The position numbers and the translations under genes were made by a program. This document shows positions 13,490-26,674 of a stretch of 36,672 nucleotides of DNA, in pieces. Origin of the DNA: Candidatus Methanoculleus thermohydrogenotrophicum (lineage in GTDB: Archaea > Halobacteriota > Methanomicrobia > Methanomicrobiales > Methanoculleaceae); the NCBI GenBank assembly GCA_001512375.1, contig LFRN01000035.1, positions 1 through 36,672 on the forward strand, in the 5' to 3' direction. Under the pieces are notes generated by a model, which did not search any database, was not told the origin of the DNA, and was given only the letters and a program-made list of their open reading frames with translations. Positions within the stretch are counted from its first letter, which is position 1. The number at the start of each line of letters is the position of its first letter.

Positions 13490-14100
13490 TTTTAATCAAC
13501 CCTTCGTGCAACTGTAGTCTGAGATGCACCGACTGCGTAGCGATTCGTACTGCTGCATGGACTGCAGAACGCACCAAATCGCTGCCGGACAGGCCGGCCG
13601 CAGGTCGGGCATTACGGCGAACCCGTATCGGGCATGACATCGAACGCCACGCCGTTTTGCCGCGGCGTGAAGGGATACAGTTGGATGGAGGCGGCGGGGA
13701 GACGCCCATCTCCTCCTATCTTCCCCGCCACCGGCCCGGTGTGCGCCGGGTACGTCCAGTCGTCGCTAATAGATCCTGATTCTTCAACGTTTCCGGGAAA
13801 GCCTGTTCCCGGAACCGGGCGCGCTGCACCGGCGTTGGCCCAACGTCTCGATCAGATCCAGCTCCTGTCATCCCGTTGTGACGAGCACAACTCCTTAATC
13901 GACATCGCCCTCCATCTGGAGGGTTCAACCTTCGCGTTGTCTTGGTACCATCTGCGCCGTCCCGCCGTGAGTTCCTGATCCGCATATGCCGCGTTGTCAG
14001 GGAGTTACCAGGGATCAGAGGTACCTAAAGCACCTGTTACTCCCTGGATCGCGGCGAGATAGAGCAGAGCGGTCTCTTAACTATTACTTAAAATTTGATA
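13490..14100 (-). ncRNA. Candidate structured leader / ncRNA upstream of the r-protein operon
   Basis: No convincing ORF. Perfect 9-bp stem TTCCGGGAA-AGCCTG-TTCCCGGAA (13791-13814); long imperfect hairpin 13998-14046 (CAGGGAGTTACCAGG...CCTGTTACTCCCTG) whose loop contains palindrome AGGTACCT. TATA-like element on the minus strand GGTTTATATCAAATT just upstream. Boundaries and transcript are inferred. Confidence 0.35.
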
Positions 14101-25005: not shown

Positions 25006-25369
25006 GCATGTAACCCCATCTTTGTTGAAATTGAGGTTTTGTACTACTTAAGCACGGCTGATCGGGTGGGACGGTTTGGAATCACCATCGCAAACCCGCT
25101 GTTGCGCGGATAGGGGGAGGGAGGCCAAACTGTATACCTGCGCTCTCGCCCCTGTATCGTCCTTTATCGGTCAGGTCAGGGACAGCGCTTCATCAAATCG
25201 AGAATCAATGCACCGACTCCGCACCCCGGGTTGGTTCACGCGACCGGCGGTCCGCCTCATGCGCCCGGACTCGACGTTATTGCTCCTCTATATCGGGAAA
25301 GACAGATATCGATTGATCGACCATATTATGAAGACCCATTCCGGGATCTCCGGTCCCCTACGGGTGATG

Positions 25370-25619
25370 GTCTTTTTGTCAACTACCCCGCCCTGAAGGG
25401 TGGGGCTTGCGAACGGCTAAGCGAGACTAAACAGTAAGACCAGGAGGTGATCAATTGCAGTAGCGTTACGGGCTACAAGAACGGATGGGTGCTTCCCTGG
25501 CCTGTCCCTCTTCCGGGCACGCCAAAACCCGATGCGCTCTCAGGAGGAGCGCTAAGCCCGTCCCGCGGCTCCGAAGGGAAATGTAACCCCGGTTCGACCG
25601 GGAGAAGGTAATACCTGCC
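25370..25619 (+). ncRNA. HEARO / IscB-type omega-RNA-like structured non-coding RNA
   Basis: Dense hairpins directly upstream of the RRXRR ORF: CCCCGCCC-TGAA-GGGTGGGG (25386-25405), GTAGC-GTTACGG-GCTAC (25460-25476), GCGCTC-TCAGGAG-GAGCGC (25534-25552), CCCGGT-TCG-ACCGGG (25588-25602). Location matches the HEARO arrangement (HNH endonuclease-associated RNA and ORF). Confidence 0.75.
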
Positions 25620-25991
25620 ATGCGTGTACCCGTATTAGACACCAATCAAACACCGTTGATGCCAACGACCCCGGCACGTGCCCGTCTTCTCCTCAAGCAG
25701 GGGGAGGCAAAACCGTACGGGAACAAACCTGGCATCTTCTGCATCATCCTGACCTATGCAGTTGACCCCGACAACCAACCACTGGTCGTCGAGATCGACC
25801 CTGGCAGTTCCTTTGAGGGCTGGTCGGTGGTCGGGACCACCCTGAAAGGGCGCGTCTCGCTTCACAACCGCATCACCGGAGGACGGGTGACCCAGACCGC
25901 AAAGGTGGAGGATTGTACCATCCTGACCAGAATCGCATGGAGAACAGAGTGGTATGCCGGGATGAGCAGACGGCATTCCTCCCCGGCCTGA
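25620..25991 (+). pseudogene. iscB: Truncated IscB-family ORF (RRXRR domain only; bridge helix and HNH domain missing)
   Basis: MRVPVLDTNQTPLMPTTPARARLLLKQGEAKPYGNKPGIFCIILTY...LVVEIDPGSSFEGWSVVG: RRXRR N-terminal pattern (VLD...PLMPTTPARARLLL..G.A, (I/L)DPGS..G). Ends after 123 aa without arginine-rich bridge or HNH motifs. Confidence 0.85.
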
Positions 25992-26041
25992 AAAAGATGA
26001 TACAACACCTGCCTGCTCCATTCCCGGACTCGGAAGAGGCT

Positions 26042-26674
26042 ATGTTTTTCGACATGCATGTCCACTCCGACTACTCCATCGACTCGGTGGTGAGCGTGGG
26101 CGCCATCGTCCGGGCCTGGGAGAAGACAGGCATCCTCCCGCTGGTCTGCGACCACAACAGCATCGAGGGCTCCAGGGAGGTGTACGCCCGGATCCGAAAG
26201 CAGGACCCTGATATCCCGGAGATCCTCGCCGAAGAGATTCTCACCCGGGATGGTGAGATCATCGGCGTGTTTCTCACCGAAGAGATCCCTCCCGGCCTCT
26301 CTGCCGAAGAGACCCTTGATGCCATAGACGACCAGGGTGCCCTCTCCATCGTCCCGCACCCCTTCTGCACCTATCGGTCGTCCACGATAGATCGGGAGGT
26401 CCTGGAGGATATCATCGACCGGATCGATATTGTCGAGGGCTACAACGCCCGGAATCGCTCCCCGGAAGCGGACATCGAAGCCCGGGCGTTCGCCCGCGAG
26501 CATAAAAAACCGATCTCTGCCGGCTCAGATGCCCATACCTGCATCGAACTTGGCGGAGTGTTTGTCGCCATCGCCCCATTCGAGGAGCCGGATGATCTTC
26601 TCGCGAACCTGAAGGACGCTCTCGTGTGGTGCCGCCCGACCAGGGCCTCTCGAAGGGTGAACCGTCAGCGGTGA
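26042..26674 (+). CDS. PHP-domain metal-dependent phosphoesterase
   Basis: MFFDMHVHSDYSIDSVVSVGAIVRAWEKTGILPLVCDHNSIEGS...ISAGSDAHT: PHP motifs (DMHVHS, D-H, SDAH). Confidence 0.88.
   Translation: MFFDMHVHSDYSIDSVVSVGAIVRAWEKTGILPLVCDHNSIEGSREVYARIRKQDPDIPEILAEEILTRDGEIIGVFLTEEIPPGLSAEETLDAIDDQGALSIVPHPFCTYRSSTIDREVLEDIIDRIDIVEGYNARNRSPEADIEARAFAREHKKPISAGSDAHTCIELGGVFVAIAPFEEPDDLLANLKDALVWCRPTRASRRVNRQR

Follow-up and report, generated by a model that had tools for sequence, protein, structure and literature searches.

A probable internally deleted, non-autonomous IsrB element that retains its omega-RNA scaffold in a Methanoculleus-group archaeon

A run of about 230 nt of hairpins directly before a short RRXRR open reading frame (ORF) raises the question of which mobile element left these two parts behind, and whether the RNA still has a use. 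The locus lies in the window, i.e., the whole 36,672-nt stretch of DNA analyzed here (contig LFRN01000035.1 of Candidatus Methanoculleus thermohydrogenotrophicum). The initial annotation had described an omega-RNA of the HEARO family retained next to a truncated IscB. We conclude that positions 25378-25996 are very probably an internally deleted, non-autonomous IsrB element (IS200/IS605-type, HEARO), for which a putative mode of action is given below. The features are collected in Table 1.

Using a covariance-model search, we found that window positions 25378-25586 (+ strand) match the whole Rfam HEARO model RF02033 (model positions 1-211) with 47.1 bits and E = 1.2e-8, below the gathering cut-off of 83 bits, at which this RNA is missed; it was recovered in an E-value search. 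All 11 HEARO matches in this genome score below the same cut-off (29.8-53.6 bits). An alignment of 17 related scaffold copies yielded 59 consensus pairs, in which 96.6% of the cells are paired and 15 pairs have changes on both sides. Among 500 shuffles, none was as high as the real alignment on four of five measures, and 10 were as high on the fifth. The pairing was also lost when the partners were slid, a control that leans toward the consensus structure because this structure came from the same 17-copy alignment. The window scaffold keeps all 59 pairs, the best value among the 17 copies (54-58 in the copies without an ORF), and its sequence is about 11% different from the other copies. Thus, the covariance-model match, with its conserved structure and sub-gathering score, agrees with the proposal that the hairpin run is an omega-RNA; likewise, covariation and shuffles place the hairpins above chance, and the scaffold is as intact as it had looked. 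It should be noted that intact pairing does not prove that the scaffold is used, because the copies are related and the insertion is possibly recent; the intactness may stem from recent insertion instead of use.

The 123-aa ORF matches the RRXRR model PF14239 with 62.5 bits (cut-off 25), as had been predicted. It consists of the IsrB PLMP domain and the RuvC-I strand, joined in frame to the C-terminal ~45 residues, and its best match is IsrB: residues 2-72 match DtIsrB (E = 2.5e-12), and in a profile built from six IsrBs, positions 1-75 align to window 25617-25841 and positions 297-341 to 25830-25964. Profile positions 76-296 are missing from the window ORF and present in two other contigs of this genome, C42 and C233, which encode intact IsrB ORFs of 351 and 355 aa. 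These two ORFs match the IsrB nickase structure 8DMB (DtIsrB) over residues 2-290 with E = 7.5e-46; the matches of IscB chains are chiefly N-terminal, with E = 7e-16 or worse. In an alignment with four other IsrBs, RuvC residues D60, E154, H223 and D226 are invariant, and RuvC-II is followed by RuvC-III without HNH between them. Because the intact homologues match 8DMB best and the RuvC alignment contains no HNH, the parent is an IsrB, and therefore no HNH was lost. The window ORF has the RRXRR/PLMP N-terminus of IsrB and lacks the split RuvC (D, E, H/D) and the bridge helix; judged from its sequence, it is an IsrB derivative and not a working IsrB. By the same kind of evidence, the isrB loci of C42 and C233 are apparently intact and could act in trans.

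The idea that the locus is a relic of IscB that lost its HNH half is, consequently, hardly tenable. It draws on the fact that the RRXRR domain is common to IscB and on a sub-threshold match to the NCBIfam IscB model. The HNH between RuvC-II and RuvC-III that marks IscB is, however, absent from the nearest intact copies, for which IsrB is the best match, and we reject IscB parentage on these grounds. The search for an intact iscB in the genome did return two apparently intact loci, but they are isrB. The bridge helix and HNH are both absent from the window ORF, as had been noted; the ORF does not simply stop before them, but an in-frame internal deletion skips the bridge helix and retains the native C-terminus of an HNH-less parent. 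We also considered that the window might conceal an intact ORF disrupted by a frameshift, and rejected this because the DNA of the isrB middle is missing.

BLAST and direct comparison with C233 revealed an internal deletion of 675 nt with a 2-nt microhomology (CA). Being a multiple of three (225 codons), this length leaves the reading frame unchanged, and the ORF runs on to the native IsrB stop. The right end lost another 21 nt between two GCCTGA repeats, whereby the 3' arm of the right-end hairpin is gone and the stop of the mini-ORF is placed 5 nt before the ATG of the PHP gene. The element spans from its left end at 25378 to its right end at ~25996, and this copy is now probably immobile. 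We found no second copy of the exact 675-nt deletion in this genome or in 60 relatives.

Table 1. Features of the element and its insertion site (window positions)
Feature	Position	Strand	Evidence and remarks
Left flank, PHP gene 5' region	25286..25377	+	Aligned with the empty sites of two related genomes (G029, G001)
Element left end and omega-RNA (HEARO) scaffold	25378..25619	+	RF02033; 59/59 pairs; covariation; terminal hairpin before the isrB start codon
Mini-isrB ORF, 123 aa	25620..25991	+	PF14239; IsrB profile; stop TGA 25989-25991
Junction of the 675-nt deletion	25838..25841	+	BLAST/direct comparison with C233
Shortened right end	25982..25996	+	Comparison with C42 and C233 right ends; multiple alignment
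ATGA at insertion site	25997..26000	+	Candidate target-adjacent motif (NTGA) and host start codon; same place in G029, G001
Host PHP-domain gene, 225 aa from insertion-site ATG	25997..26674	+	Pfam PHP_C, weak PHP match; conserved in G029, G001 and others

These features can be compared to known systems. Like the OMEGA nickase DtIsrB (PDB 8DMB; PMC9581776), the family has PLMP and RuvC without HNH, a 5' scaffold, a guide upstream and NTGA after the target; DtIsrB itself has an NTGA target-adjacent motif and an omega-RNA of ~300 nt (PMC9581776). The bridge helix, RuvC-II, RuvC-III and the greater part of the TAM-interacting domain of DtIsrB are, however, missing from the window copy, and the archaeal scaffold scores under the Rfam HEARO cut-off. 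The full-length model match and the position before an RRXRR ORF are those of HEARO RF02033, whereas the score (47 bits versus 83) and the ORF, a deletion derivative, are different. With the IscB OMEGA nuclease the element shares the N-terminal RRXRR/PLMP region and the omega-RNA layout; unlike in IscB, no closely related copy has an HNH.

The insertion site was mapped by means of empty sites in two related genomes, which match the window insertion point to the base, directly before ATGA. The G029 site reads ..GATGACCTTTTT followed immediately by ATGACTCAA.., the window reads ..GATGGTCTTTTT, the element and ATGATACAA.., and G001 agrees. A Shine-Dalgarno-like GGTGAT is at 25363-25368 in the left flank. 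From IsrB biology (PMC9581776), the candidate guide would be the last 16-20 nt of this flank (~25358-25377, the PHP leader), in line with the expectation that the guide segment lies just 5' of the scaffold, i.e., before 25378. We searched this 16-20 nt flank, with NTGA, against the genome and found no other match with up to three mismatches, as expected if the empty allele is the only target of the guide. In relatives, the empty allele likewise has ATGA after a region resembling the guide; the G029 site differs from the window guide at several positions. The insertion itself was not found in relatives. The PHP gene follows the element, as had been noted, but it belongs to the host and not to the element, which inserted at its start codon.

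For the copies at mobB (C282), an aminotransferase gene (C20) and purN (C230), G029 likewise has an empty site ahead of the corresponding start codon. At C42 (purD/argF), relatives have an additional 14 bases, lying between two ATGA motifs; a small deletion therefore took place there with or after the insertion. Insertion without duplication beside a short motif, as in IS200/IS605-type elements, is thus seen at the window, C282, C20 and C230, and ATGA abuts the right end at all 13 right-end loci of this genome (the window and L058, L059, L060, L061, L064, L066-L069, L071, L073 and L076).

In this genome, about 14 copies have a match of over 230 bp to the window element, in addition to shorter left-end or right-end fragments. 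It should be noted that the assembly is a draft fragmented into 287 contigs, with a completeness of 89%, and some copies may therefore be mis-joined; C234a and C42 (L058, L060) have a near-identical purD-end left flank and different right flanks, which could reflect a duplication, a strain mixture or an assembly mis-join. In C13, C173, C130 and C56 (L067, L068, L069, L071), the scaffold is joined straight to the right end, with one common junction and four different flanks; thus, omega-RNA-only miniatures moved, or were copied, after the deletion. C282 has a different internal deletion. MITE-like or PATE-type non-autonomous IS200/IS605 derivatives have an internal deletion, keep their ends and occur as several copies with one junction. 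Several copies with one deletion at different sites are seen in C13, C173, C130 and C56, and the window deletion in one copy only. Unlike in these derivatives, the left end of the element is here the omega-RNA, and the miniature has therefore retained its guide-RNA scaffold in full.

The genome has 22 Y1_Tnp matches, and none of the eight Y1 transposase loci checked contained a tnpA with matching ends. Across the genus, RRXRR matches are patchy (5 of 35 genomes). A genus member without an RRXRR match, G019, carries a far stronger HEARO match (G019:C240:100-312, 154.5 bits). A contig filed as Candidatus Zixiibacteriota (L087) encodes an IsrB 73% identical to the Methanoculleus type, pointing to transfer or mis-binning. 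For an IsrB in the large phage record LR745208, no right end was evident in the stretch read.

The anatomy, deletions, empty sites, pairing and copy number observed give the following course of events. The element entered the PHP gene without duplicating the target, between the Shine-Dalgarno region on one side and the ATGA start codon on the other; it retained the left end and the complete omega-RNA scaffold, and lost the isrB middle (675 nt in frame) and 21 nt of the right end between repeats. From this, we infer how the locus may work. A transcript from the PHP promoter would contain the guide (PHP 5'UTR), the scaffold, the mini-ORF and the PHP gene. The scaffold may be loaded in trans by an intact IsrB from elsewhere in the genome, which would nick an empty copy of the site beside NTGA; such a trans role is possible because intact IsrB copies are present. 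Ribosomes that leave the mini-ORF stop would be 5 nt from the PHP ATG, so that PHP translation could continue by coupling.

Whether the RNA still acts is a separate question, to which three answers can be given. The copy may be a dead relic, i.e., an inert, decaying copy whose RNA is neither made nor used and whose pairs are intact only through recent insertion. The broken right-end hairpin, the loss of the nuclease core and the restriction of the exact deletion to one copy in this genome and 60 relatives are consistent with such decay; the complete pairing despite the ~11% sequence difference, and the occurrence of sister ORF-less copies that have a common junction at four sites, which shows that such forms are moved, argue against it, and we consider this reading a serious one that falls somewhat short of an even chance. 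We give the same weight to a trans-guide reading, in which the scaffold with its guide from the PHP 5'UTR would be loaded by the C42 or C233 IsrB, nick empty alleles and help the element to persist or spread. Here, the absence of another target of the guide in this genome and the several differences between the guide and the G029 empty site are set against the two intact IsrB ORFs, the ATGA after a similar guide region in the empty allele of relatives, and standalone omega-RNAs, which a statement in PMC9581776 (citing Altae-Tran 2021) describes as functional with IscB.

HEARO RNA without its protein is disordered (PMC12286853), and an orphan omega-RNA would therefore need an IsrB from elsewhere. 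The same disorder argues against the third answer, a co-opted 5' leader in which the omega-RNA, perhaps with the remaining PLMP-domain mini-protein, controls PHP translation. That the insertion was not found in relatives, and that the C-terminal half of the ORF has no known role on its own, likewise speaks against co-option, which we regard as improbable. In its favor, the element takes the place of the PHP leader immediately upstream of the start codon, and the ORF keeps the region matching PLMP; the PLMP domain of DtIsrB is in contact with the terminal hairpins in which the isrB Shine-Dalgarno lies (PMC9581776).

The position of the window element directly before a start codon is a recurrent one. 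Of the 13 right ends abutting ATGA, 11 are followed by an ORF of at least 68 aa, and nine are Pfam-supported start codons, with the product recognized from near the first residue: PHP, DUF1890, ornithine carbamoyltransferase, FAD oxidoreductase, PurN-type formyltransferase, MobB-MoaE, ABC ATPase, aminotransferase and CarA. As a null model, we used 363 kb of the genome, with genes called by a simple program of our own: of the 3317 ATGA sites, 109 coincide with a predicted gene start, as do 12.9% of the sites outside other coding sequence. Compared to this non-coding null, 9 of 13 is significant (p ~4e-6). The copies are related, but insertion was separate at most sites; C42 and C234a, which have a common left flank, are maybe not independent. 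Selection against insertions within genes explains part of the bias, and the non-coding null allows for that. Hence, at 9-11 of the 13 right ends the ATGA is the start of a host gene (carA, argF, purN and others), a share far in excess of chance.

Start-codon sites were also found in other relatives, at genes for biotin ligase (G009), glycosyltransferase (G022), ferredoxin (G019) and an amino-acid-kinase-type product (G018), and, in G034, at genes for a tRNA synthetase of class II (D, K, N) and for a DUF134 protein. The pattern extends to G046 and G068, from another family, whose intact copies are at start codons as well; one G046 copy deviates. On cyanobacterial plasmids (Leptolyngbya, Stanieria), the IsrBs likewise end at an ATGA start, which is preceded at a short distance by GGAG or GGAGG. 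We compared eight plasmid loci in which a gene follows closely downstream: in four, this gene is annotated as starting at ATGA; in a fifth (dpdE), an in-frame ATGA precedes the annotated start; and the other three deviate. This tally is suggestive and not significant on its own. The dpdE gene, on Nostoc sp. PCC 7120 plasmid alpha (L151, ~2655-2680), is annotated from GTG, and the in-frame ATGA lies directly after the apparent right end of the RRXRR element, so the annotated start may be incorrect.

In-frame internal deletions arose independently three times in this genome (the window, C282, and the form shared by C13, C173, C130 and C56) and a fourth time in a related species, G034, where the deleted isrB of C37 (L172) adjoins an ATG-started gene. 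The chance of frame retention is 1/3 per deletion, i.e., 1/27 for three and 1/81 for four; in C13 and C56 the frame was broken by later mutations. By sequence comparison, these deletions hint, at most, at selection for translation up to the host gene.

A joint reading, offered tentatively and rather doubtful as a whole, is that IsrB/HEARO elements are start-codon transposons. NTGA would be the host start codon plus A, so that the guide would be the host ribosome-binding region; the host promoter would make the guide RNA, and the element ORF would end a few bases before the host ATG, keeping the host gene translated. Miniatures would be kept in frame for coupling while their omega-RNAs act in trans. 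HEARO elements were reportedly described by Weinberg in 2009 as adjoining ATGA or GTGA. No earlier statement of the start-codon explanation for the IsrB motif and gene order was found in a literature search that did not include Weinberg 2009, Kapitonov 2015 and Altae-Tran 2021.

The mechanism is thus ordinary and the setting informative: the locus is a miniature, deletion-derived copy of a known element type. Guide-RNA-only miniatures beside intact nickases, with mapped empty sites, make a natural test of omega-RNA action in trans and of transposon persistence. The repeated precise insertion at housekeeping start codons (carA, argF, purN, and a class II tRNA synthetase gene in a relative) points to a simple explanation of the IsrB motif, and of why guide, scaffold, ORF and host gene follow one another in this order. 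Elsewhere in the window, positions 13776-13855 (- strand) match the Rfam L4-Archaeoglobi ribosomal protein leader with 50.8 bits (cut-off 34.5), although the genome does not belong to Archaeoglobi.
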